From an uncultured Aliiroseovarius sp. (lineage in GTDB: Bacteria > Pseudomonadota > Alphaproteobacteria > Rhodobacterales > Rhodobacteraceae), in assembly GCF_947497285.1 (NCBI RefSeq), contig NZ_CANMFT010000003.1:62001-126000 (forward strand): a stretch of 64,000 bases of DNA, written 5' to 3'. The translations under genes and the position numbers were made by a program. Positions 1,222 to 46,709 of the stretch are shown one piece after another. Under the pieces are notes generated by a model. That model was given only the letters and a program-made list of their open reading frames with translations. It searched no databases and was not told the origin of the DNA. The number at the start of each line of letters is the position of its first letter. Position 1 is the first letter of the stretch.

Positions 1222-1719
1222 ATGTCTCAGGCCTTCCATCAGCAGGTTCAATTCCGCTCCCCCGAAGAAACAGCAGGTTTTGCAGCCCGGTTTTCGCAAT
1301 GCTTGAAGCAGGGCGATGTGATTTTGCTTGAAGGCAGTATCGGCGCTGGAAAAACACATTTCGCGCGCGCCCTGATACAAACGCGACTGGCCGCAGCCAG
1401 TGCGATGGAAGATGTGCCTTCCCCGACCTTCACCTTGGTGCAGACCTACGACGACGGATGCTGCGAGATTTGGCATGCTGACCTGTATCGCCTTACCCAT
1501 CCCGACGAAGTCGAGGAATTGGGCCTGCTGGCTGCCTTTGAAACCGCAATTTGCCTTGTGGAATGGCCCGATCGACTGGGCAACCTTGCCCCGCCAAGCG
1601 CACTGAAACTGACATTTGAAATGGTGCCGGACCCGGTCGAACACGAGCACCGCCTTGTCACGATCAGCAGCGCCAATCTTCAATGGCAATCCCGCGTCGA
1701 AGCGGCCCTGCGCTCATGA
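1222..1719 (+). CDS. tsaE: tRNA t6A37 biosynthesis ATPase TsaE
   Basis: This is a small P-loop ATPase of 165 residues, the usual TsaE length. The Walker A motif GSIGAGKT is at residues 38-45, followed by the family signatures SPTFTLVQTY (about 67) and HADLYRL (about 88), and LVEWPDRLG near 112. TsaE works with TsaB and TsaD in the cytoplasm to make threonylcarbamoyladenosine at position 37 of ANN-decoding tRNAs. Its stop codon overlaps the next gene as ATGA, so translation of tsaE and the sugar kinase is probably coupled. This tsaE-kinase-nucleotidyltransferase order is common in alphaproteobacteria. Confidence 0.95.
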   Translation: MSQAFHQQVQFRSPEETAGFAARFSQCLKQGDVILLEGSIGAGKTHFARALIQTRLAAASAMEDVPSPTFTLVQTYDDGCCEIWHADLYRLTHPDEVEELGLLAAFETAICLVEWPDRLGNLAPPSALKLTFEMVPDPVEHEHRLVTISSANLQWQSRVEAALRS

Positions 1720-2729
1720 CCTCTCGCGCCACACAACAAGCTCGGTTTCTAATGTGCGTCGGATGGTCAGATGCGGTGAAAGAGCCGATCACAGGCGATG
1801 CCTCGGCGCGGCAGTATCATAGACTAACACAGCCAGAAAGCGGACAGACGGCGATTTTAATGGACGCCCCTCTGGACCTGTGTGGCACGATGCAGCCCTT
1901 TGTCGAGGTCGCCTCTTATTTGTCAAATGTCGGGCTTTCCGCACCCAAAATAATGCATCAGGATATCGAGCAGGGTTTTTTGCTTCTTGAAGACCTTGGC
2001 CGCGCGGTTTTTGCAGCCGAAATTGCATCGGACCCCCGCCGCGAAGCCCCCCTTTACACGGCAGCCGTGCATCTTATTGCCAAGCTTCATGATCACCCAA
2101 ACGAACGCTTGCCTTTGTATGACGCCGACAAGATGGCTGAGGCCGTCGATCTTGCCTTTCTGCACTATCGCGCCACCCCGACAGACAAACTTGATGCCCC
2201 CGCGAAAGACGCAAGTGCGCTTTTGTGGGAACACCTGACCCAACTCAGCAATTTCAGCACCGTATCGCTCAGGGATTACCATGCAGAGAACCTCCTTTGG
2301 CTGCCAGATCGCGACGAGGACAAGCGCGTCGGTTTGCTTGATTTTCAGGATGCTGTGCAAACCCACCCGGCCTACGATCTGGTTTCCCTGTTGCGCGATG
2401 CGCGCCGTGATGTGTCGCCTGAATTGGCCGACCACTTGATCGGTGTTTTCTGCCACCTTCGGGGGTATGACGAAGACCGCTTCCGCGCCGAGGCGGCTTT
2501 GATCTCGGTTCAGCGAAATCTACGCATCCTCGGCATCTTTGCACGCCTGTCGCGCCAGATGGGAAAACCGCATTATGTTGACCTGATTCCGCGGGTTTGG
2601 GACCACCTTCAACGCGACCTGGACCACCCGTCGCTTGATCGCCTCAGACCAACGCTGCGCACCATATTGCCAGCCCCTGAACCAGACTTTCTGACAATAC
2701 TGAGGTCCCCATGCCAAACTCTGCGATGA
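1716..2729 (+). CDS. amgK: Aminoglycoside phosphotransferase-family kinase, probable AmgK (MurNAc/GlcNAc anomeric kinase)
   Basis: This 337-residue protein has the APH-type kinase fold. GDASARQYHRL near the N-terminus matches the AmgK nucleotide-loop region. The catalytic loop is LRDYHAENLLW and the metal-binding motif is LLDFQDAV, both near residue 200. In Pseudomonas and relatives AmgK phosphorylates MurNAc at C1 in peptidoglycan recycling, and MurU then makes UDP-MurNAc. The overlapping downstream murU supports this role. I chose the ATG at 1716, which overlaps the tsaE stop as ATGA; an in-frame ATG at 1683 lies deep inside tsaE. The substrate is inferred from family and context. Confidence 0.88.
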   Translation: MTSRATQQARFLMCVGWSDAVKEPITGDASARQYHRLTQPESGQTAILMDAPLDLCGTMQPFVEVASYLSNVGLSAPKIMHQDIEQGFLLLEDLGRAVFAAEIASDPRREAPLYTAAVHLIAKLHDHPNERLPLYDADKMAEAVDLAFLHYRATPTDKLDAPAKDASALLWEHLTQLSNFSTVSLRDYHAENLLWLPDRDEDKRVGLLDFQDAVQTHPAYDLVSLLRDARRDVSPELADHLIGVFCHLRGYDEDRFRAEAALISVQRNLRILGIFARLSRQMGKPHYVDLIPRVWDHLQRDLDHPSLDRLRPTLRTILPAPEPDFLTILRSPCQTLR

Positions 2730-3394
2730 TATTTGCCGCCGGTCGCGGGACACGTATGGGGTCGTTGACCAAGGACTGCCCGAAGCCTCTGATCAAGGTC
2801 TCGGGACGACCGCTAATCGACTATGCGATGGACTTAGTCCAAAGCAGCCCAATCGAAAAAACCGTGGTGAATGTCCATTATCTTGCAGATCAGATTGCAG
2901 ACCACCTTCGAGACCAAGATGTCTTGCTGTCCTACGAAGCCGGCACAGTTCTGGAGACCGGGGGCGGGCTAAAAAAGGCTCTAACCTTGCTAAATTCTGA
3001 CACTGTTGTCACATTGAACTCTGACGCGGTCTGGACTGGTGCGAACCCGATCAATGCCCTTCTAAGCGCGTGGGACCCCGCGAAAATGGACGCGCTTTTA
3101 ATGCTGGTGGACCACCCTGACGCCATTGGCCACAATGGGGCCGGTGACTTTCTTATGTCCACGGATGGGACGCTTCAACGTGGGCAGGGGCTGACCTATA
3201 CCGGGTGCCAAATCATCAAGACCCAATTTGTGGAAGCGATTCCGCAGGACGTATTTTCCCTTAACCTCGCTTGGGATTCCATTTTGCAGACGGATCGCGC
3301 ATTCGGGCTGCGTCATCACGGACAATGGTGCGATGTTGGTCATCCCGAGGGGATCACGCTTGCTGAAGCGATGCTAAGGAATGCCGATGTTTGA
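2711..3394 (+). CDS. murU: Nucleotidyltransferase, probable MurNAc-1-phosphate uridylyltransferase MurU
   Basis: The 227 residues form a single nucleotidyltransferase domain. The N-terminal signature is MIFAAGRGTRMGSLT with the following KPLIKV, and there is a GTVLETGGGL loop near residue 78 and a metal-binding NSDAVW near 102. There is no left-handed beta-helix acyltransferase domain, which separates it from GlmU. MurU converts MurNAc-alpha-1-phosphate and UTP to UDP-MurNAc, bypassing de novo synthesis. It overlaps the upstream kinase by 19 bp and addB downstream, so it sits inside a tightly coupled operon. A general sugar-phosphate nucleotidyltransferase remains possible, but the amgK neighbour favours MurU. 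Confidence 0.88.
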   Translation: MPNSAMIFAAGRGTRMGSLTKDCPKPLIKVSGRPLIDYAMDLVQSSPIEKTVVNVHYLADQIADHLRDQDVLLSYEAGTVLETGGGLKKALTLLNSDTVVTLNSDAVWTGANPINALLSAWDPAKMDALLMLVDHPDAIGHNGAGDFLMSTDGTLQRGQGLTYTGCQIIKTQFVEAIPQDVFSLNLAWDSILQTDRAFGLRHHGQWCDVGHPEGITLAEAMLRNADV

Positions 3395-6332
3395 TCCTAT
3401 TGAAAGTGCCCGCGTTTTTGGGGCGCCACTCGGCGTCGACTTTCCGAAGGCTCTGGTCGATGGCGTGCTGGCCCGCACCAAGGACCAGCCGCCCGAAGCG
3501 CTTGCCCGGATCGAACTGTTCGTGAACACAAGCCGCATGCAGTCGCGTGTGCGAAGCCTTTTTTCGGGCCAAACCCGGTTTTTGCCACGCATCCGCCTGA
3601 TCACCGACTTGGCCCAAGATCCAGCTTTGTCCAACGTGCCACAACCCGTTGCACCCCTGCGCCGAAGGCTAGAGCTTCGTCAATTGATCGCGGCCTTGAT
3701 TGAACGCGAACCCGACCTGGCCCCAAAAGCAGCTGTTTTCGACCTTGCCGACAGTCTGGCCAACCTGATGGACGAAATGCACAGCGAAGGGGTGCATCCA
3801 AAAGACCTTCAGCAGCTTGATGTTGGCGAAATGTCCGAGCACTGGGCACGCAGCTTGAAATTCATCTCTTTGGTGGAGCGCTATTTCGGCGATGCGTCGA
3901 AAGAGGCGCCCGATGTCGAGACGCGACAGCGCATGGTGATCGAAGCGACGATCCAAAAGTGGCACGCCGACCCGCCTGCACACCCCATCCTGATTGCGGG
4001 CTCAACCGGTTCACGCGGTGCGACTGCGATGTTGATGGAAGCGGTTGCCAAATTGCCTCAGGGCGCGGTGATCCTTCCGGGATTTGACTATGACATGCCG
4101 CCCGAGATTTGGGCGCAACTTCGCGACGCTCTCTCATCTGAGGATCACCCACAGTTTCGTTTTGCCAAGCTGATGGACAGGCTTGGCATGTTGCCAACTG
4201 CGGTCATGAACTGGACCGAAACAGTCCCTAATTCGCCCCAAAGGAACGCTCTGGTTTCTTTGGCGCTGCGACCTGCGCCCGTCACGGATCAATGGCAAGT
4301 TGAGGGAAAGACCTTCAAAGGCATCGAACCGGCCACCCGGGATCTGACGCTGATCGAAGCCCGAACACCTCGCGCCGAAGCGATGTCCATTGCCGTCATT
4401 CTGCGCCGATCTGTCGAAGACGGCGTGCCTGTTGCATTGATCACACCTGACCGAAACCTGACACGACAGGTCACCGCAGCGCTGGACCGTTGGGGCATTG
4501 AGCCAGATGACAGCGCTGGGCGGCCACTTGCCCAGTCGGCACCCGGCCGTTTCCTGCAACATGTCGCACGTCTGATGTGCGAAGACACCCGCGCCGAAAC
4601 GCTACTGACGCTGTTGAAGCATCCGCTTACGCATAGCGCGCCGGGAATGCGCGGCGACCATCTGCGCTGGACCCGCGATTTTGAGCTTCAGGTCCTGCGG
4701 GGGGGGATTGCACTGCCATCACAGGACACTCTTGCGCAATGGGCCACGCGCCATGCCGACGACACCGCAAGATTGAAATGGATCAAATGGGTTGACGACA
4801 CTTTTTTGAACAAAGCCGTGCCGGGTGAAACGGACCTAGAGGCCCTCGTGGACGGTCACATCGCGCTTGCCGAACGCATTGCGCGCGGAACCAGTGATGG
4901 CGGCACCGGCGAACTGTGGGAACGCACAGCCGGAAAACGCGCTTTGGAAATCGTCTCTAATCTTGCAGAAAATGGCCAATACGGGGGCACGCTTAGCGCC
5001 GCGGCCTATCGCGATCTTTTCCGGTCTGTGCTGAATACCGGCGAGGTGCGCGACCCCGTCACACCACACCCGCATGTGATGTTCTGGGGCACGCTTGAGG
5101 CCCGCGTTCAGGGTGCGGACCGTGTCATTCTGGCGGGTCTGAATGACGGAATTTGGCCTGAGCTTCCAGCACCGGACTCATGGCTCAATCGCAAAATGCG
5201 ACTTGATGCGGGCTTGCTTCTGCCTGAACGGCGCATCGGCTTGTCAGCACACGACTTTCAGCAGGCGATCGCCGCAAAAGAGGTGTATCTGACTCGCGCA
5301 ACCCGAGATGAAGACAGCGAAACGATCCCGTCGCGTTGGCTTAACCGGCTCTGCAACCTGATGGGTGGCATGTCGGATCAAGGTGCTGCACAGCTTGACG
5401 CAATGCGCAGGCGAGGCGACGTTTGGATCGCACTTGCCCAACAGCTTGACGACGTTCAAACACGCCTCCCACCCGAGCCGCGCCCATCGCCCGCGCCGCC
5501 CGTGTCAGCGCGCCCAACGCGGTTGTCGGCAACGGGTGTGACGAAGCTGATCCGTGACCCATACGCTATCTATGCCGACAAAGTGCTTCATCTGCGCACG
5601 CTGCCTCCGATCCAGCAAGAATCTGATGCGTTGGTGCGCGGCACTGTTCTTCACCGTGTTTTTGAACGGTTTGCCCAGGAAACCGCCCTGCCGCAAGATC
5701 CGCCAATGGAACAAGAACGCCTTATGCAGATCGCCCACGAGGTGATGCAGGATTTGGTGCCTTGGCCCGCAACTCGATTCCTGTGGCTGGCCCGAATTGG
5801 GCGCATCGCTGAGTGGTTCGTGGCGCAAGAAACGCAGCGCCGCATGCGCTCTGAAAACCTGGCCAACGAAGTGTGGGGCGAAGTGACGTTTGAACACCTC
5901 GGGTTCACGCTTGGCGCCAAGGCCGACCGGATCGATCGTCGCAACGACGGGCAGCTTGAAATCTACGATTACAAAACAGGCACACCGCCCAATGCAAAGA
6001 TGCAGAAACACTTTGACAAACAGCTATTGCTAGAAGCCGTTATTGCCAATCTGGGCGGGTTTAGAGACTTATCTGAACGCCAGACGGCGTCGATCTGCTA
6101 CATTGGGCTTACCCCCAAGAAGGAAGAGCGCACAGACCTTTCGCAAGCCGACGTTACGATCGCTCAGGCGGAGTTCGAGGCGCTTGTTCAAGCCTACCAA
6201 GACCCGGCCCAAGGATTCACATCGCGCCGGTCAGTTCACATGCAGCGATTTGAGGGGGACTATGACCATCTCGCGCGGTTTGGGGAATGGGACGACAGTT
6301 TCGACCCGACGGTATTGGAGGTTGGTCGATGA
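3387..6332 (+). CDS. addB: Double-strand break repair protein AddB
   Basis: AddB is the second subunit of the AddAB helicase-nuclease that processes DNA double-strand ends for RecA-dependent repair. The protein is 981 residues with an inactivated helicase-like N-terminal half and a C-terminal RecB-type nuclease, seen as ALVRGTVLHRVFERFAQ around residue 750 and the catalytic EIYDYKTGTPP around 855. The four-cysteine iron-sulfur cluster of Firmicutes AddB is not evident; no CxxC pattern exists near the C-terminus. An alternative ATG lies at 3381, but the ribosome site AAGGA (3376-3380) touches it directly and is spaced properly only for 3387. The stop overlaps addA as ATGA. Confidence 0.94.
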   Translation: MFDPIESARVFGAPLGVDFPKALVDGVLARTKDQPPEALARIELFVNTSRMQSRVRSLFSGQTRFLPRIRLITDLAQDPALSNVPQPVAPLRRRLELRQLIAALIEREPDLAPKAAVFDLADSLANLMDEMHSEGVHPKDLQQLDVGEMSEHWARSLKFISLVERYFGDASKEAPDVETRQRMVIEATIQKWHADPPAHPILIAGSTGSRGATAMLMEAVAKLPQGAVILPGFDYDMPPEIWAQLRDALSSEDHPQFRFAKLMDRLGMLPTAVMNWTETVPNSPQRNALVSLALRPAPVTDQWQVEGKTFKGIEPATRDLTLIEARTPRAEAMSIAVILRRSVEDGVPVALITPDRNLTRQVTAALDRWGIEPDDSAGRPLAQSAPGRFLQHVARLMCEDTRAETLLTLLKHPLTHSAPGMRGDHLRWTRDFELQVLRGGIALPSQDTLAQWATRHADDTARLKWIKWVDDTFLNKAVPGETDLEALVDGHIALAERIARGTSDGGTGELWERTAGKRALEIVSNLAENGQYGGTLSAAAYRDLFRSVLNTGEVRDPVTPHPHVMFWGTLEARVQGADRVILAGLNDGIWPELPAPDSWLNRKMRLDAGLLLPERRIGLSAHDFQQAIAAKEVYLTRATRDEDSETIPSRWLNRLCNLMGGMSDQGAAQLDAMRRRGDVWIALAQQLDDVQTRLPPEPRPSPAPPVSARPTRLSATGVTKLIRDPYAIYADKVLHLRTLPPIQQESDALVRGTVLHRVFERFAQETALPQDPPMEQERLMQIAHEVMQDLVPWPATRFLWLARIGRIAEWFVAQETQRRMRSENLANEVWGEVTFEHLGFTLGAKADRIDRRNDGQLEIYDYKTGTPPNAKMQKHFDKQLLLEAVIANLGGFRDLSERQTASICYIGLTPKKEERTDLSQADVTIAQAEFEALVQAYQDPAQGFTSRRSVHMQRFEGDYDHLARFGEWDDSFDPTVLEVGR

Positions 6333-37191: not shown

Positions 37192-38341
37192 AAATTGGCA
37201 AATCGGCGGGTTCGGACTGTATGTCCACTGGCCGTTCTGCCAATCCAAATGCCCCTATTGCGATTTCAACAGCCATGTCGTCGCGTCGATCGACCATGAC
37301 GCTTGGCTAAACGCCTACATCGCGGAGATTGACCGATACGCGGCTGAAACGCCTGATCGCATCCTGAACTCAATCTATTTCGGCGGCGGCACACCAAGCC
37401 TGATGGCGCCAGCGACCGTTGGGGCGATCATCGAACGCGCCGCGCATCACTGGACCTTCGCCAATGACATTGAAATCACGCTGGAGGCCAACCCCGGATC
37501 AATCGAGGCGCAGAACTTCGCGGGCTACAAAGCGGGGGGCGTCAACCGGATCTCGGTCGGCATTCAGGCATTGAATGACACGGACCTGAAGCGGTTGGGG
37601 CGCCTGCATACCGTGAGCGAAGCGAAGCAGGCTCTAACCTTGGCGAAATCACTGTTTGACCGGGTGAGTTTTGACCTGATCTATGCGCGGCAAGATCAAT
37701 CAATGGACGCGTGGAAAGATGAGCTGCAATGCGCGCTTTCATTCGGGGCCGATCATCTGTCGCTCTATCAACTCACCATCGAACCCGGAACAGCATTCGG
37801 CGCACGGTTTGACGCGGGAAAGCTTCAAGGCTTACCCCCGGACGAGCTTGCGACGGACATGTATTTCCTGACGCAACAGATGACAACAGATGCAGGCCTT
37901 CCGGCCTATGAAGTATCCAACCACGCGGCCCCCACACAGGAAAGCCGACACAACATGATTTATTGGCGGTCCGGCGATTGGGTGGGAATCGGACCCGGCG
38001 CGCATGGTCGCCTGACCATTGACGGGACCAGATTTGCCAGCGAAGCGCCGCTTTCACCCGCGCTCTGGCTTAGTGCGGCGGCGAATGGAGCCGCTGAAAA
38101 CATCCGCTCGGTGATTGAGCTTGATGAGCAGACGACTGAATACCTTCTTATGGGCCTTAGAACGACCGAGGGCATCGATCTTGACCGCCTTGACGATCAG
38201 TTCAAATCAAGGTTAAATATCAATAAAATCAAAGGCTTAATTGAGCTATCGTTGGTCGAAGTCACCGATCAGACACTAAAAGCGACCCGCGCGGGCCGCC
38301 CCGTGTTGAATGCAATCATCCGCGAGCTGCTCCCGGACTAA
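37175..38341 (+). CDS. hemW: Radical SAM heme chaperone HemW (coproporphyrinogen oxidase-like)
   Basis: The ~388-residue radical SAM protein has the cluster motif CQSKCPYC near residue 24 preceded by GLYVHWPF, the glycine-rich [10 protein letters not shown] near 70, and the HemW C-terminal domain ([17 protein letters not shown] near 325). HemW delivers heme to apoproteins; older annotation calls it oxygen-independent coproporphyrinogen oxidase. The start is unsure: no ATG lies nearby, GTG 37175 or TTG 37169 are candidates, and both overlap rdgB. The TAA stop overlaps the parB TAG in CTAA. Confidence 0.9.
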
Positions 38342-39225
38342 GTCGAAAGCTTGCCGCAAAGCTCGTCAAGCTCGTCCAGAGACTTATAGCGAACCGTCAC
38401 GACCCCCGCATCGCCCCCGGCTGCGTGATCGATCTGAACCTTCATACCCAGCGCGGCAGAGAGGTCGGATTCAAGTGCTCGTGTGTCTGCGTCCTTCTCT
38501 GCCCTCTGCGCTGCCGGTTTCGCAACCTTTGCAGCGGGTGCTTTGGCAAGCTTTTCAGCGGCGCGAACGGAAAGCCCTTTGGAAATGATCTGACGCGCAA
38601 GCTCTAAGGGGTGTTCGGCATTGACCAAGGTGCGCGCGTGGCCGGCTGTCAGCTTCCCATTACGAACGAAATCCTGCACCTCTTCGGGCAGGTTCAAAAG
38701 GCGCAGCAGATTCGCGATGTGGCTTCGGCTTTTTCCAAGCGCCTCGGATACTTTTTCCTGCGTATGACCAAAACGCTTCATCAAGTCGCGATACCCTGCG
38801 GCCTCTTCTATCGCATTGAGGTCGGCGCGCTGGATATTCTCGATAATTGCGACTTCCAACGCCTCTGTATCGCTATATTCTCTAATGATAACAGGTAGTT
38901 CGTGAAGTTGCGCCATCTGAGAGGCGCGCCAGCGCCGCTCCCCTGCGACAATCTCGAACTCACCTTCTTTGGTTGGGCTAGGGCGAACGATAAGCGGTTG
39001 AATTACGCCCTTTTCGCGGATCGAGGACGCGAGATCCTCCAGCTGTTCCTGTGTGAACAGGCGGCGCGGCTGTTCTGGGTTGGGAACGATCTTTTCGACG
39101 GGCACCAACATGTCGGCACGCCGCGTTGCCTGCGCCTCTGACCTGGTGTCGTCTTCGGGCGTCACGTCCGCCATAAGGGCGGACAGCCCCCGGCCAAGGC
39201 CTCTTTGCTTTTGGTTCTTGCTCAC
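38338..39225 (-). CDS. parB: Chromosome-partitioning protein ParB
   Basis: The 295-residue CTP-dependent DNA clamp loads at parS and spreads. The N-terminal ParA-stimulating part is RGLGRGLSALM. The CTP-binding/arginine-patch box is GERRWRASQ near 105, and the helix-turn-helix is FGHTQEKVSEALGKSRSHIA near 155-180. An Ala/Lys-rich linker (about 225-250) leads to a C-terminal dimerisation domain. The start is GTG 39225, with AGGAGG 6-11 nt upstream. Two perfect parS sites lie 1.4 and 3.3 kb upstream. parA is immediately upstream in the same operon. Confidence 0.96.
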   Translation of the reverse strand: MSKNQKQRGLGRGLSALMADVTPEDDTRSEAQATRRADMLVPVEKIVPNPEQPRRLFTQEQLEDLASSIREKGVIQPLIVRPSPTKEGEFEIVAGERRWRASQMAQLHELPVIIREYSDTEALEVAIIENIQRADLNAIEEAAGYRDLMKRFGHTQEKVSEALGKSRSHIANLLRLLNLPEEVQDFVRNGKLTAGHARTLVNAEHPLELARQIISKGLSVRAAEKLAKAPAAKVAKPAAQRAEKDADTRALESDLSAALGMKVQIDHAAGGDAGVVTVRYKSLDELDELCGKLST

Positions 39226-39226
39226 T

Positions 39227-40030
39227 CTAGCCTCCTTGTTTGCGGCCCAACAATTCTGCCGCCAAGTCGCGGTAGGCGATGCTGCCTTTCGATGTCGGAT
39301 CATACATCAATACCGGAAGCGCAAAAGACGGTGCCTCGCTGACACGCACGTTGCGCGGTATGATTGTCTTGAAGACAAGATCACCAAGGTTGTCACGAGC
39401 ATCGCTTTCAACCTGCCGTGACAGATTGTTGCGGGTGTCATACATCGTCAGAACGATCCCTTCGATGCGCAACTTCGGATTCGCGGTCTGTCGGACCTCG
39501 CGCACGCTGAGCATAAGCTGAGACAGGCCCTCCAGCGCGAAAAATTCGCTTTGCAGGGGGATCAGGACACTGTCGGCCGCGACCAGAGCATTTACCGTCA
39601 GCAAGTTCAGTGACGGCGGACAATCAATCAGGACATAGTCGATCTTTAGCGCATCAAGCCCCGGCGCGCGCAGGGCATCATGCAGCAAATGACTGCGTTT
39701 TTCATTGGAAACCAACTCGATATCCGCCGAAGACAGGTCTGTCGTTGCGGGCGCGATCAGCAGGTTTTCGACATCCGTTTCCTGAAGAATGTCGATCAGC
39801 GGAGCTTCTTCCAGCAGAAGATCATAGGTTGTCAGCTCGCGGTCGCTCATGTCCACACCAAGCCCGGTTGATGCGTTGCCCTGAGGATCAAGATCAACAA
39901 GCAGCACCGTTTTTCCGACCTCGGCAAGCGCCGCGCCCAAATTGATGGTCGTCGTCGTTTTCCCGACCCCGCCCTTCTGGTTTGTGACCGCGATAATCTT
40001 GGTCCGATGCTCGCGAAGAGTGTCAGGCAC
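39227..40030 (-). CDS. parA: Chromosome-partitioning ATPase ParA
   Basis: The 267-residue MinD/ParA-family ATPase has the deviant Walker A NQKGGVGKTTTTINLG (about 18-33), the switch LLVDLDPQGNAST near 44 and the Walker B region YVLIDCPPSLNLLTV near 130. It forms a nucleoid gradient that moves ParB-parS complexes to the cell poles. It overlaps rsmG by 8 bp upstream and is 1 bp from parB, so rsmG-parA-parB are co-translated. Confidence 0.97.
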   Translation of the reverse strand: MPDTLREHRTKIIAVTNQKGGVGKTTTTINLGAALAEVGKTVLLVDLDPQGNASTGLGVDMSDRELTTYDLLLEEAPLIDILQETDVENLLIAPATTDLSSADIELVSNEKRSHLLHDALRAPGLDALKIDYVLIDCPPSLNLLTVNALVAADSVLIPLQSEFFALEGLSQLMLSVREVRQTANPKLRIEGIVLTMYDTRNNLSRQVESDARDNLGDLVFKTIIPRNVRVSEAPSFALPVLMYDPTSKGSIAYRDLAAELLGRKQGG

Positions 40031-40640
40031 GGGTGAGGTCTCCGATTTTCAGAATGGTGGCGCTTGGGTTGGTTTTGCTGGGATATGTATCAAGCTCGAA
40101 CCGCCAATGATCAAGAGCTTCATCCAGTTCCTTGTTGAAATTCTCGCCTTTCAAAAAAAGGCACACCCCATTTTCGGTCAGGTGACGCGATGCGTAGCCC
40201 AGAAGGTCGCTCAGCGGCGCCAACGCACGGGCGGACACGACATCGGCGCCCAACGGCGCGACACTTTCGATTCGATGCGCCTCAACTGACGCGCGGATGC
40301 CGGTTTCCCGGATTACGGTTCGTAGAAACGTGGCTTTGCGCAAATCGCTTTCTACGCAAACTGTTGTTCGACCGGGATCAGCCTCTGCCGCCAGAATCGC
40401 TGTAACCAGGCCGGGGAATCCGCCGCCTGCCCCCATATCACACCACATATTGATGTTTTTTGGAGCCAGGTCATAAATCTGGGCCGAATCAACAAAATGT
40501 CTGGACCAAAGATCTGGCAGCGTTGAGTGCGCGACCAGATTGATCGCGGGGTTCCACTTGGTCAACAGCGCGGCATAGACCTCTAGTCGCTGCATTGTTT
40601 CACGTGAAACATCAAGCTGATCCGACGACTTCGCGCTCAT
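40023..40640 (-). CDS. rsmG: 16S rRNA m7G527 methyltransferase RsmG (GidB)
   Basis: The 205-residue SAM methyltransferase modifies G527 of 16S rRNA. It contains NLVAHSTLPDLWSRHFVDSA (about 35), the SAM loop CDMGAGGGFPGLV near 67, ESDLRKATFLRTVIRETG near 97 and VSARALAPLSDLL near 135. Its codons 10-15 contain a perfect parS site. The stop of mnmG touches its start (position 40640 shared), continuing the mnmG-rsmG-parA-parB operon. Confidence 0.95.
   Translation of the reverse strand: MSAKSSDQLDVSRETMQRLEVYAALLTKWNPAINLVAHSTLPDLWSRHFVDSAQIYDLAPKNINMWCDMGAGGGFPGLVTAILAAEADPGRTTVCVESDLRKATFLRTVIRETGIRASVEAHRIESVAPLGADVVSARALAPLSDLLGYASRHLTENGVCLFLKGENFNKELDEALDHWRFELDTYPSKTNPSATILKIGDLTRA
40596..40611. 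other. parS centromere site inside rsmG
   Basis: TGTTTCACGTGAAACA is a perfect 16-bp palindrome identical to the well-known chromosomal parS consensus bound by ParB. It is read within rsmG as codons 10-15 (part of D-V-S-R-E-T). It is about 5.3 kb from the proposed oriC. Confidence 0.95.
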
Positions 40641-42517
40641 CAGGCTGATTTCTTCTTCTGATTTTGCCGCAGTCTGGCCAGAATAAGCGTCAGCGCTGCT
40701 GGCGTCACTCCTTCGACCCGCCCGGCTTGAGCAAGGGTTCTTGGGCGTGCGCGCGAAAGCTTGTCGACAAGCTCGTTCGACAGGCCCTCCATCGCTTCAT
40801 ACTGGAAATCGCTTGGTATCTGCCATGCTTCGTCACGGCGAAGCGCCTCAACATCGCGGGCTTGCCGGTCAATGTAGTTCGCATATAGGGCGTCGCGTGA
40901 GGCTTGGACCTGAATTTCGTGTGGTATAGCATCAAACGTCTGATCCAGCTGGATAATCTTCTCGAAGTCCATGTCCGGAAAGGCGAGCAGGTCAAACGCT
41001 GTCCGCTTGGTTCCGTCTTTGCGAACGGTCAGCCCCAGTTTCTCCAAGTCCTGCGGGGTGAATGTTCGCGCGGTTAGTTGCTCCTTAGCCTTTGCCAAGG
41101 CCGCCGATTTATCCAGAAACACTTGGCGACGAGCCTGACTTACGCAACCAAGCTCAATGCCCAGCGGCGTAAGGCGCTGGTCTGCGTTATCGGCACGCAG
41201 CGACAGCCGGAATTCAGCGCGAGATGTGAACATTCGATAAGGCTCGGTGACGCCTCGAGTGATCAGATCGTCGATCATAACGCCCAGATAGGACGATGAA
41301 CGCGAAAACACCACCGGGTCACGGCCCTTGGCAGCGAGCGCTGCGTTCAGGCCGGCAACGAGCCCCTGCGCGGCGGCTTCCTCATATCCTGTGGTGCCAT
41401 TGATCTGGCCTGCCAGATATAGACCCGACACCTCGCGCAGCTCCAAAGTTTCGGTCAATGACCTTGGATCAACGTAGTCATATTCAATCGCGTATCCGGG
41501 CTGAAGAATCTCGGCAGACTCCAGGCCATGGATCGAGCGAACATAGGCTTCTTGCACATCGATCGGGAGCGATGTGCTGATCCCGTTTGGATAAACGGTG
41601 TGATCGTCGATGCCTTCTGGCTCAAGAAACACCTGGTGCGAGCTCTTGTCGGCAAAGCGCACGATCTTGTCCTCAATCGAGGGACAATAGCGCGGCCCAA
41701 CACCATCGATCTGGCCACCATACATCGCAGAGCGATCAAGGTTTTCTCGAATGATATCATGAGTTTGCGAGTTTGTATGAGTGATCCCGCACGATACTTG
41801 CGCGGCTGAAGGCTTGGTGTTCAGGAACGAGAACATCACCGGGGCATCATCGCCGGGCTGCATATCCAGAACATCCCAGTTGATGGTCCGCCCATCCAGC
41901 CTTGGTGGCGTCCCTGTCTTCAACCGCCCAAGCGAAAGCCCAAACCCGTCGATGCGTTCGGCAAGCTTGACCGAAGGACGATCCCCCATTCTTCCGCCTG
42001 ACGAGGTCTTGTCACCCACATGAATGATTCCCCGCAGAAACGTGCCGGTCGTCAAAATCACCGCAGCGGCATGAAGCTCTGACCCATCCAGAAGACGCAC
42101 ACCGGCAACGCGCGCGCCCTTCATTAGAAAATCTACGGCCTCGCCCTCAACCACAGTCAGATTTGGTGTTGCGGCGATCTCTGCCTGCATCGTTTGACGA
42201 TAGATCTTGCGGTCAGCCTGCGCGCGTGGACCTTGCACCGCTGGTCCTTTGCGTCGGTTCAAAAGCCGGAATTGAATGCCCGCTTTGTCAGCGACGCGCC
42301 CCATCAACCCGTCCAGCGCATCAATCTCTCGCACCAGATGGCCTTTTCCAAGCCCTCCGATGGCTGGATTACACGACATAACACCAAGATCTTCCTTGCG
42401 CAGCGTGATAAGGGCCGTTTTCGCACCAAGTCGAGCCGACGCATGGGCAGCATCGGCGCCAGCGTGGCCCCCACCAACCACAATCACATCAAAGTCGCGA
42501 TGTTTCACGTGAAACAC
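40640..42517 (-). CDS. mnmG: tRNA uridine-5-carboxymethylaminomethyl modification enzyme MnmG (GidA)
   Basis: The 625-residue FAD protein works with MnmE to make cmnm5U34 in tRNA wobble positions. The FAD loop is [20 protein letters not shown] (about 13-32); further signatures are [20 protein letters not shown] near 50 and [20 protein letters not shown] near 370. The start is GTG at 42517; its first codons (M-F-H-V-K-H) are the parS site at 42501-42516. It is the first gene of the mnmG-rsmG-parA-parB run, 22 bp after mnmE. Confidence 0.96.
42501..42516. other. parS centromere site at the mnmG start
   Basis: A second perfect TGTTTCACGTGAAACA palindrome. It covers codons 1-6 of mnmG, beginning one base after the first nucleotide of its GTG start, so binding of ParB could affect mnmG expression. 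It lies about 3.2 kb from the proposed oriC and 1.9 kb from the other parS. Confidence 0.96.
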
Positions 42518-43859: not shown

Positions 43860-45131
43860 TTACGTGTTCATTGAATCAAAGAACTCTGCATTCGACTTCG
43901 TTTGTTTGAGCTTCGAGATCAGGAATTCAATCGCGTCTGTGGTGCCCATCGGATTCAAGATACGACGAAGCACAAAGGTTTTATGCAGATCTTTTGCATC
44001 AACAAGCAGTTCTTCCTTCCGCGTGCCGGACTTGAGGATGTCGATGGCTGGGAATACCCGCTTGTCAGCGACCTTGCGGTCCAGCACAATCTCGCTGTTG
44101 CCGGTGCCTTTGAATTCCTCAAAGATCACCTCATCCATCCGCGAACCGGTATCGATCAAAGCGGTCGACACGATGGTCAGCGACCCGCCCTCTTCAATAT
44201 TCCGTGCAGCACCGAAGAACCGCTTTGGGCGTTGCAGGGCATTGGCATCCACACCGCCGGTCAAGACCTTGCCAGAGGACGGCACAGTCGTGTTGAAGGC
44301 GCGTCCCAGGCGTGTGATCGAGTCCAGCAAGATCACGACATCACGTTTGTGTTCGACCAAGCGCTTGGCTTTCTCGATCACCATCTCGGCGACGGCCACG
44401 TGACGGGTGGCGGGTTCGTCGAAGGTCGATGATACAACTTCGCCCTTCACTGACCGCTGCATGTCGGTCACTTCTTCCGGGCGCTCGTCGATCAGCAAAA
44501 CGATCAGATAGCATTCCGGGTGATTGGTTTCGATCGAATGGGCGATGTTTTGCAACAGCACGGTTTTACCCGTCCGCGGTGGCGCCACGATCAATGCCCG
44601 TTGGCCTTTCCCGATCGGTGACACCAGGTCAATGATCCGGGCCGAGCGGTCTTTGATGGTGGGGTCTTCAATTTCCATCTTCAGGCGTTCATCGGGATAC
44701 AACGGGGTCAGGTTGTCAAACGCCACTTTGTGTTTGGCCAGCTCCGGATCGCCGAAGTTGATCTTTTCAACCTTCGTGATGGCAAAGTAGTTTTCGTTTT
44801 CCCGTGGGGCCTGAATGATCCCTTCGATCGTATCACCAGTGCGCAGCGAATACTGGCGGATCACGTCGGGGGAAACGTAAATATCATCAGGACCTGACAG
44901 ATAGTTCGCTTCGGGTGAGCGCAGAAAGCCAAAGCCGTCTTGCACGACTTCCAACACGCCGTCGCCACCGATGATCCATTCATCATCCGCCAGCTCTTTC
45001 AGGATCGAGAACATCATCTCGCCCTTGCGCATGGTGGATGCGTTTTCGATTTCAAGCTCTTCCGCCATGTTCACAAGCTCTTTCGGGCTTTTGGCTTTGA
45101 GTTCAGCTAGATTCAGACGGTTTTCGGACAT
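43860..45131 (-). CDS. rho: Transcription termination factor Rho
   Basis: The 423-residue RNA-dependent hexameric ATPase has the N-terminal helical and cold-shock-like RNA-binding domain ([40 protein letters not shown] near 68). The motor domain has P-loop [15 protein letters not shown] near 185, [17 protein letters not shown] near 210, and the Q-loop/R-loop [11 protein letters not shown] with [15 protein letters not shown] near 285-310. It has no long inserted region, as is normal for this class. It precedes mnmE in the same direction. Confidence 0.97.
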
Positions 45132-45263: not shown

Positions 45264-45713
45264 TCAGAATTTAACAATCACTGAAAACACGATCACAAGC
45301 ATCAGCAATGTCGGGAATTCATTCATCATCCGATAGCGACGGCCGGTCAGCGTGTTGGTCCCCGCGATGAAATCTTTGCGACGCCCTGCAAGCCACATAT
45401 GAAACCAGGTCATCAAAATCACGGAAAGCCCCTTGGTCCATGGCCAAACCATCGACCAATCGACAATCCCCGGCGTGAACACCAGACACAGCCCGAAGAT
45501 CCAAGTGCTGATCATGGAGGGATTCATGATCGCTTTCAAAAGGCGACGTTCCATCGTCTGAAACAGATCATCGGTTTCATTGCCCGATCCGACGACTTCT
45601 ACGTGATAGACAAACAGACGAGGCAGATAGAACAGCCCTGCCATCCAAGCGATCACCGAGATGACATGAAGCGATTTTGTCCATGGATAAACATCAGCAA
45701 GAAAATCACCCAT
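45264..45713 (-). CDS. hemJ: Protoporphyrinogen IX oxidase HemJ
   Basis: The 149-residue integral membrane protein (four hydrophobic segments at about 10-32, 62-80, 83-100 and 125-149) matches HemJ (UPF0093): WTKSLHVISVIAWMAGLFYLPRLFVYH near the N-terminus, with the conserved histidine, and MVWPWTKGLSVILMTWFHMWLAG. HemJ performs the penultimate heme step in many alphaproteobacteria that lack HemG and HemY. I start at 45713 (MGDFLADV), preceded by AAGGAG. It is the last leftward gene before the proposed origin. hemE, its common neighbour in relatives, is absent here. Confidence 0.92.
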   Translation of the reverse strand: MGDFLADVYPWTKSLHVISVIAWMAGLFYLPRLFVYHVEVVGSGNETDDLFQTMERRLLKAIMNPSMISTWIFGLCLVFTPGIVDWSMVWPWTKGLSVILMTWFHMWLAGRRKDFIAGTNTLTGRRYRMMNEFPTLLMLVIVFSVIVKF

Positions 45714-45749
45714 TCTAAGCACTCCTTGTCTGACCACCGGGTTCAGGCC

Positions 45750-45792
45750 TTCTTAAAATAATAAAGAAGAGAAAGAAAAGATGATGTTTTTG
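45750..45792. other. A+T-rich tract, candidate DNA-unwinding element
   Basis: A purine-rich, nearly GC-free run (TTCTTAAAATAATAAAGAAG and the following AGAAAGAAAAGATGATGTTTT) stands out from the G+C-rich surroundings. It lies directly beside the perfect DnaA box at 45800-45808, the usual arrangement for origin unwinding. Confidence 0.55.
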
Positions 45793-45799
45793 TAGGGCC

Positions 45800-45808
45800 T
45801 GTGGATAA
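45800..45808 (-). promoter_or_regulatory. Perfect DnaA box
   Basis: TGTGGATAA on the plus strand is TTATCCACA on the minus strand, the canonical high-affinity DnaA box. It lies next to the A+T-rich tract. Confidence 0.8.
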
Positions 45809-46090
45809 TGGGGATTAATGGATTATCCCGCCCCTTTCGCACAGAGGCAAAAGCAGAGGATACTTTTCTGGATAGATCACGGATGACGTGAAAAACAAGG
45901 TAGGAGCGGGCAGTTCCAATGGGGATAACTCAAGGGACAGTTTCGAACCGTTTCCTGATATCCACACCAACAGAAGAATTTTCCCAACAGTGGAAGAATT
46001 CAGGATTTTATCTTAGTGGTGGGATGAGTTATCCCGGATCGAAGTCAGGGCACGGTTTTCCATGTTTTTCGACACCGGAACAAACAGAGT

Positions 46091-46099
46091 TTTTCCACA
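46091..46099 (+). promoter_or_regulatory. Relaxed DnaA box upstream of maf
   Basis: TTTTCCACA fits the relaxed consensus TTWTNCACA. It is 11 bp before the maf start codon, at the right end of the proposed oriC, and so could also affect maf expression. Confidence 0.6.
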
Positions 46100-46109
46100 G
46101 GGTTATCAG

Positions 46110-46709
46110 ATGAGCGCCACGTTGATTCTTGCCTCTCGTTCGGAAATCCGGGCGCAACTGTTGCGAAACGCTGGTGTTGATATCGAAATTCAACCCGCCC
46201 GTATAGACGAAGAAACGATCCGCGCCTCGCTGGAGGCCGAGGGCACCTCTCCGCGCGATCTGGCCGATGCGTTGGCTGAGTTCAAAGCCCGCAAGATAGC
46301 AGACAAGAACCCCGATCGGCTGGTTCTGGGCTGTGATCAGATCGCAGAGATTGGCGGAAAGGTTCTGTCAAAGCCCCGCGACCCGGACGACGCAAAGGCT
46401 CAATTGATGGAGATGTCAGGCCAGACGCATCGTCTATTGTCGGCCGCGGTCTTGTATGAAGATCGCAAGCCCATCTGGCGTCAGGTGGGGATGGTTCGTC
46501 TGCGGATGCGAGACTTGTCTGCGGCCTATGTCGACGACTACGTCACCCGCAATTGGGACAGTATCCGCCATTCTGTCGGTGCCTATAAGCTCGAGGAAGA
46601 AGGCGTTCGGCTGTTCGCAAAAGTTGACGGCGATTATTTCAATGTTTTGGGTTTGCCGCTGACCGACCTGCTGTCATACCTGATCTTGCGAGGAGATCTT
46701 AAAATATGA
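46110..46709 (+). CDS. Maf family nucleotide pyrophosphatase
   Basis: The 199-residue Maf/HAM1-superfamily protein hydrolyses nucleoside triphosphates to monophosphates. Visible features are LILASRSEIRAQLLRNAGV at the N-terminus, IDEETIR near 30, LGCDQIAEIGGKVLSKPRD near 73 (catalytic aspartate) and SAAVLYEDRKPIW. Whether it acts on dTTP/UTP or m7GTP cannot be told. ATG 46110 is chosen; 46062 is an in-frame ATG in the A+T-rich origin region and adds non-family sequence. The stop overlaps aroE as ATGA. Confidence 0.92.
   Translation: MSATLILASRSEIRAQLLRNAGVDIEIQPARIDEETIRASLEAEGTSPRDLADALAEFKARKIADKNPDRLVLGCDQIAEIGGKVLSKPRDPDDAKAQLMEMSGQTHRLLSAAVLYEDRKPIWRQVGMVRLRMRDLSAAYVDDYVTRNWDSIRHSVGAYKLEEEGVRLFAKVDGDYFNVLGLPLTDLLSYLILRGDLKI

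Follow-up and report, generated by a model that had tools for sequence, protein, structure and literature searches.

Where does the chromosome of an Aliiroseovarius-like bacterium begin to replicate, and how might its initiator protein open the double helix there? These questions are raised by an intergenic spacer in the window, the whole stretch of 64,000 nucleotides that was analyzed, which corresponds to positions 62001-126000 of contig C3 (446,818 bases) in a genome assembly of 3,372,361 bases in 21 contigs. The closest named relatives of the maf protein encoded next to the spacer come from Aliiroseovarius species, with a protein identity of 83% at best. A preliminary description of the window had placed a probable replication origin, oriC, between hemJ and maf. 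A cluster of DnaA boxes, an unstable tract, a switch in strand composition, a pair of parS sites and the gene order support this placement, and positions 45714-46109 are very probably the chromosomal oriC of this Aliiroseovarius-like member of the Rhodobacteraceae. The features of the region are collected in Table 1.

Table 1. Features of the proposed origin region and its surroundings, in window positions
Feature	Position	Strand	Evidence and remarks
parA-parB	38338..40030	-	ParB: TIGR00180, 199 bits (cut-off 58.45); ParA: ParA-type hits below their cut-offs
parS TGTTTCACGTGAAACA	40596..40611		Inside the 5' end of rsmG
parS TGTTTCACGTGAAACA	42501..42516		Inside the 5' end of mnmG (MFHVKH...)
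rho	43860..45131	-	TIGR00767, 681 bits
hemJ	45264..45713	-	TIGR00701, 135.8 bits, just under the cut-off of 138.05; alternative GTG start at 45737
Spacer, predicted oriC	45714..46109		Intergenic, between hemJ (leftward) and maf (rightward); boxes, least stable 45-mer, skew minimum, synteny
A+T-rich duplex unwinding element (predicted)	45750..45794		Nearest-neighbor stability rank 1 of all 45-base windows; + strand nearly C-free
Trinucleotide repeat GATGATGTTTTTGTAG, candidate DnaA-trio element	45780..45795	+	3'->5' from the box: GAT GTT TTT GTA GTA G
GC-rich spacer GGCC	45796..45799		Between the trio element and the DnaA box; column-conserved
Perfect DnaA box TTATCCACA	45800..45808	-	Identical in 12/18 aligned rows including the window; the remaining 6 rows have a single change (by eye)
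Weak second DnaA box TGGGGATTA / TAATCCCCA	45809..45817	-	Two mismatches; abuts the perfect box, co-oriented; GGGGATTA in 18/18 rows
Degenerate site	45845..45853	-	GTGGA of a DnaA box in 15/17 close relatives (by eye), lost in the window
DnaA box TTATCCCCA	45920..45928	-	Identical in 14/18 rows (by eye)
DnaA box-like ATATCCACA	45958..45966	+	One mismatch; none of 17 close relatives has a box here
Conserved block CAACAGTGGAAGAA	45985..45998		18-row alignment
Conserved block AACAGAGTTTTTCCACAGGGTTATCA just upstream of maf	46083..46108	+	Holds the DnaA box TTTTCCACA (46091-46099)
maf-like nucleotide pyrophosphatase	46110..46709	+	TIGR00172, 132 bits

The spacer lies between divergent genes, as had been described. 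Rho and hemJ point leftward, and maf, aroE, coaE and dnaQ point rightward, all six having been assigned with NCBIfam. The order of genes that the preliminary description gave for related alphaproteobacteria is correct at this locus. The groups rho-hemJ and maf-aroE-coaE are also present in relatives, where the order from rho to coaE is the same. It agrees with Caulobacter crescentus and Rickettsia, whose origins are located between hemE and COG1806 and likewise carry DnaA boxes between divergent hem-side and maf-side genes (PMC1914354). The window differs from both in that hemJ and rho occupy the hemE side, with maf directly next to the spacer. Among seven genomes of the class that were searched, four have hemE at a distance of 1.1-1.2 kb from maf and pointing away from it. 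The search for maf in the class relied on a protein query; a family model had been tried and abandoned, as another Maf paralogue outranked the origin-linked one in the genome under study.

The description of the spacer as the longest intergenic stretch of the window is supported, though not proven: seven other gaps of 440-885 bp, which were left by a crude gene finder, each hold at least one long open reading frame that the program had missed. The G+C content of the spacer is 0.447, compared to 0.545-0.607 in 2-kb windows not touching it. A search with Rfam families and for tRNA gave no match anywhere in the 64-kb window.

The four DnaA boxes that had been reported, namely a perfect one (TTATCCACA), a relaxed one (TTTTCCACA) and two with a single mismatch (TTATCCCCA and ATATCCACA), are all present. 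The entire assembly contains 379 matches with up to one mismatch, or about 0.045 per 396 bp, and the spacer alone has four. The perfect box is uninformative by itself, since there are 14 such boxes in the genome and 24 matches to a reversed control pattern. The cluster as a whole exceeds chance. A scan of 196,009 bases (the window and 11 stretches of C3) yielded 27 boxes, with no second pair within 396 bp anywhere else. On contig C1, three pairs of boxes within 396 bp and no groups of three were found by eye among 100 matches listed, which comprise the 14 perfect boxes and otherwise sites on C1 and a part of C2. Two observations were counted against an origin: the box at 45958 is unconserved, and a box that 15 of 17 close relatives keep has been lost here.

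When GC skew is cumulated along the window, it reaches its lowest value at 45738. A minimum far from the site, which the preliminary description had named as grounds for rejecting the origin, was not seen as far as the data allow, the skew of this genome having been followed through the window and sampled pieces of C3 in an assembly of 21 unordered contigs. The sampled pieces of C3 left of the site are negative, with a value of approximately zero at the contig end. The 8-kb pieces at the site and just to the right of it give -0.026 and -0.003, respectively, and farther right, in the interval from 118 to 412 kb, nine out of nine sampled pieces are positive. The left end of C3 (L005, G000:C3:1-12000), in which GC skew is absent, has a G+C content of 0.50 compared to 0.56-0.60 in the other pieces, and is perhaps acquired DNA. 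In two relatives with single-contig assemblies, each sampled at 20 places, the skew left of maf is negative in 11 of 11 (G141) and 10 of 11 (G123) samples, and right of maf it is positive in 7 of 10 (G141) and 6 of 10 (G123). These series are coarse and noisy, and they put the switch near the site without placing it sharply, least of all in G123. In this genome, the first five samples to the right of maf include four with slightly negative values, so the minimum could be up to about 0.7 Mb away.

The partitioning genes parAB and the two parS sites that had been noted nearby lend further support to the origin. Both sites are exact and lie 3.3 and 5.2 kb from the spacer; at a tolerance of three mismatches, 0.14 sites would be expected in the window. 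The 3.37-Mb genome contains exactly these two sites when up to two mismatches are allowed. A reversed control pattern gives three matches per strand at this tolerance, and thus the exactness and the place of the sites are what counts. The arrangement is not peculiar to this genome. Of the 60 loci of the maf search, 50 contain parA, mnmG and maf together, and parS sites with no more than one mismatch are present in all 50. There are two such sites in 46 of them and three in the other four, and their distances from maf are in most loci about 3.6 and 5.5 kb.

Within this order, dnaA is often found close to the origin (PMC8116508), and the dnaA gene of this genome is located on contig C7 (L002, open reading frame 1420-2841), separate from C3. 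The true origin might lie elsewhere, on another contig or near dnaA, in which case the spacer would represent a secondary cluster of DnaA boxes, for instance a titration site. The 21 contigs are unordered, the skew of G123 is noisy, and the check for clusters among the 379 near-boxes covers 196 kb plus the 100 matches listed. Such a location is nevertheless highly improbable in view of the sign switch on C3, of parS sites that occur only here in the genome, and of the synteny in relatives. The position of oriC between hemJ and maf also agrees with published predictions for the family and represents a known kind of locus. Among 109 Rhodobacteraceae strains, an oriC was assigned to 101 (closed genomes) by Ori-Finder combined with manual curation, which was based on nearness to the GC-disparity minimum, a local minimum of G+C and nearness to parAB (PMC6699656). 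The origins of that set resemble the window in family, DnaA boxes, GC-disparity minimum, low local G+C and adjoining parAB; the hemJ and maf flanks, the conserved blocks and the trio elements are not described in the parts of that study considered here (PMC6699656).

The A+T-rich tract that had been pointed out adjoins the perfect box. No other 45-mer in the 64-kb window is as unstable as the one that starts here at 45750, for which stacking energies give -47.9 kcal/mol compared to a mean of -66.9. The + strand of the tract is nearly devoid of C: cytosine accounts for only 9 of 1748 aligned bases of the + strand at 45765-45797 in 53 loci.

Besides the window itself, these 53 loci include 52 of the 60 that the maf search had yielded. 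Seven loci with no hemJ match or with an unrelated maf were left out, as was L067 with a hemJ-maf spacer of 2,281 bp. The latter locus (1276-4028 of a sphingomonad-labelled MAG contig) keeps both rho-hemJ and maf-aroE-coaE, with 2.3 kb between hemJ and maf. Measured from the longer reading of HemJ, spacer length ranges from 335 to 418 bp across the 53 loci and is 372 bp in the window. The spacers contain from zero to six boxes with up to one mismatch, at least one in 52 and at least three in 39 of the 53, whereas control stretches inside maf have none in 52 of the 53. In the 18 Aliiroseovarius-type rows, the spacers are 369-383 bp long and consist of discrete conserved blocks amid divergent sequence.

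The most deeply conserved block reads, on the + strand, an A/G/T tract, GATGATGNTNNTGTAG, a GC-rich spacer, TGTGGATAA and TG(G/T)GGATTA. The box adjoining the GC-rich spacer is unrecognizable by eye in five loci (L035, L045, L046, L051 and L068), which keep only the second box, and thus either box of the pair can be the strong one. In a Nioella-like group (L053, L054, L057, L058, L060 and L066), the repeat consists mainly of GTT, and the GC-rich spacer in front of the box is reduced in length or absent.

A second block, at 46083-46108, is nearly invariant across the Aliiroseovarius-type loci (L031 being the most different) and ends at the start codon of maf, so that DnaA may also influence the expression of maf. 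The conserved box in this block is 10 bp before the start. It could be argued that the spacer is nothing but the divergent promoter of hemJ-rho and maf, with DnaA acting on the box cluster as a transcription factor. The genes do diverge, and the region 45500-46300 has three sigma-70-like matches compared to 0.8 expected, in addition to the conserved box before maf. A promoter would, however, leave the skew switch, the pair of parS sites, the unstable tract and the deeply conserved block of box, GGCC and repeat unexplained, and there is very little chance that it accounts for the locus.

The spacer differs from the Caulobacter origin, which has five CtrA sites and one IHF site (PMC1914354), in that it holds the consensus of neither. 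The motif TTAA-N7-TTAA of CtrA (also with N6), GANTC and the IHF consensus were all searched for and not found in the spacer. Its layout is that of the "basal unwinding system" (BUS) of Bacillus subtilis. An A+T tract, a trinucleotide repeat, a GC-rich spacer and two co-oriented boxes follow each other in the same order and with the same polarity (PMC8287927, PMC10721633, PMC10316083), and this layout of single or tandem boxes, short spacer and oriented repeat is found both in the sequence of the window and in the alignment of the 53 loci. The first trio is TAG, as in B. subtilis, and a G recurs every three bases at the captured position. There are differences as well: the middle base of trios 2-5 is mostly T and not A, the DnaA protein has Tyr at the position of Asn187, and in the window the strong box is the one adjoining the GC-rich spacer.

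Read 3'->5' from the box, the window has GAT GTT TTT GTA GTA GAA. The typical repeats near the box are 3'-GAT-5' once and then 3'-GT(A/T)-5', with T where the DnaA-trio has its central adenine. With the register starting directly after the GC-rich spacer, the first base is G in 44, 51, 27, 43 and 43 of the 53 loci in trios 1-5. The middle base is A in trio 1 in 36 of the 53, and T in trios 2-5 in 42, 37, 38 and 42. The box-proximal trios thus fail to show the middle adenine as a rule. Among 36 representatives that are less than 65% identical, T is the middle base of trios 2-5 in 28, 23, 25 and 27. The spacing of G by three exceeds that in shuffled sequences (P<0.05) in 39 of the 53 loci and in 24 of the 36 representatives, with P = 0.0025 in the window. 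In some loci, the register of the repeat is shifted by one base. The spelling of the trios is a conserved variant at the level of sequence. Deviant trios, for example ones that have no middle adenine, have been suspected to be possible by Pelliciari et al. 2021 (PMC8287927). No trios in Alphaproteobacteria were found among the titles and abstract openings of the matches listed in open-licence PMC; the supplementary tables of Pelliciari et al. 2021 may list Rhodobacteraceae, and absence from print is not established.

The published rule for trios asks for a run of at least three 3'-NAN-5' no farther than 16 bp from a box. In the window, TAG TAG AAA at a spacer of 14 is such a run in another register, and it is thus the choice of register that decides how the trios are read. 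The trio element may be canonical, with DnaA using the out-of-phase 3'-TAG TAG AAA-5' across a 14-base spacer while the T-rich part near the box is melted and not read. In Thermotoga maritima, the trio next to the box is supportive but dispensable, and the TAG repeats needed for function are found farther away; the boxes and repeats of T. maritima are spelled differently from those of the window (PMC10316083). Here, too, it may be the more distant TAG-type repeats that matter. Trios according to the published rule occur in 36 of the 53 loci including the window, but 17 loci have none, and only two have them at a spacer of 5 or less. The near repeats are conserved as well, and trios 1-3 of B. 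subtilis are termed essential (PMC10721633). The chance that the canonical repeats are the ones used is only slightly below even.

A different proposal is that the T-centred repeats themselves are read by DnaA. In B. subtilis, Asn187 contacts the middle adenine, and Arg202 and Glu228 contact the guanine; when the middle A of trios 1-3 is changed, T or G reduces initiation more strongly than C does (PMC10721633). The DnaA of the genome under study can be aligned to B. subtilis DnaA (8btg) free of gaps over the relevant part, and N187, I190, I193, R202 and E228 correspond to Y, V, I, K and E. Of 30 DnaAs from Rhodobacteraceae, 28 have Tyr at position 187 and the other two have Phe. Among 30 DnaAs scanned from the rest of the class, 29 are readable at this position, with Tyr in 23, Phe in three, and Asn, Arg and Ser in one each. 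No origin element was identified near maf or hemE of the sole genome with Asn (G214). The family has Arg188 in 28 of 30 and Gln191 in 22 of 30 proteins, whereas the other members of the class have Gln188 in 21 of 29 and Arg191 in 24 of 29. To judge from the aligned residues, a swap of two side chains at positions 188 and 191 of the initiator-specific motif possibly separates the family from the rest of the Alphaproteobacteria. In addition to the dnaA gene itself, positions 81771-82403 of contig C1 (G000:C1:81771-82403) encode part of a protein similar to DnaA, with scores of 39.5 and 22.4 bits, which may be an initiation regulator of the HdaA type.

The wider class was examined at 40 loci, where the elements were located by the tandem-box anchor alone. 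An earlier class-wide detector had been rejected as circular, because the periodicity of G and the absence of C were built into its score. The anchor is weak when up to three mismatches in 13 are allowed, with matches on the expected strand in 33 of the 40 loci and on the other strand in 26; at up to two mismatches in 13, the numbers are 19 and 10 (by eye). In 14 of these 19 anchored loci, the 30 bases upstream contain at most one C, compared to 0.44% of random positions. Spelling was compared using 14 loci from outside the family, the other 26 of the 40 having been dropped. 5'-(A/T)TG-3' outnumbers 5'-TAG-3' in 28 of the 36 family representatives and in 4 of the 14 others, while 5'-TAG-3' is the more frequent in 4 of the representatives and 8 of the others. 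In a class member from outside the family, L163 (G261), GTT repeats that are in phase precede GGGCC and a DnaA box, similar to the family pattern. The residue that reads adenine has thus been mostly lost in the class, and the T-centred spelling is commonest in Rhodobacteraceae. Tyr alone does not explain the T-centred trios, since some members of the class have Tyr together with ordinary 3'-GAT-5' repeats (for example L164 of G164 and L172 of G187).

The combination of these observations leads to the proposal that Rhodobacteraceae origins carry a deviant trio, 3'-GT(A/T)-5', which would be read by a DnaA with Tyr in place of Asn187 together with the family-typical Arg188 and Gln191. This proposal is tentative, and we regard it as possible but less likely than not. 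If it is true, the guanine contact would be kept and the second captured base changed.

Val is found at the position of I190 in 25 of the 30 family DnaAs, and the DnaA of Escherichia coli has Val at the equivalent position. The T-rich repeat might instead act like the single-stranded TTGT/TTATT motifs of E. coli and be bound by DnaA that is recruited back from the boxes. The complexes of E. coli DnaA bind TTGT/TTATT in the unwinding element (PMC10316083), and TTGTTGTTGT is present in those members of the family that have GTT repeats. Against this, G recurs every three bases, the GC-rich spacer and the tandem boxes are those of the B. subtilis layout, and an IHF-consensus site was not found in the spacer, all of which make a mechanism of the E. 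coli type unlikely.

By combining the anatomy of the locus with what is established in other bacteria, it is possible to outline how the origin would be opened. DnaA would bind the strong box at 45800-45808 and its weak neighbor at 45809-45817, and the boxes at 45920 and 46091 would help it to bind. The DnaA filament would then extend leftward across GGCC onto the + strand of the repeat at 45780-45795. The presence of the filament on the repeat would cause the A+T tract to open, allowing the helicase to be loaded. Replication forks would leave oriC in both directions, and ParB bound at the two parS sites 3-5 kb away would separate the new origins.

The locus thus indicates where the chromosome probably starts replicating, in line with the predictions for the family. 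The variant repeat matters more than the location. The single-strand code for origin opening, which has been proposed to be broadly conserved, rests on a central adenine, and the near-box repeats of this family mostly keep the G and have T as the next base. Such T-centred repeats occur in a class where most DnaA proteins no longer have the residue by which B. subtilis DnaA contacts this adenine. Whether the single-strand code of DnaA can drift has in this way become a question open to simple assays.
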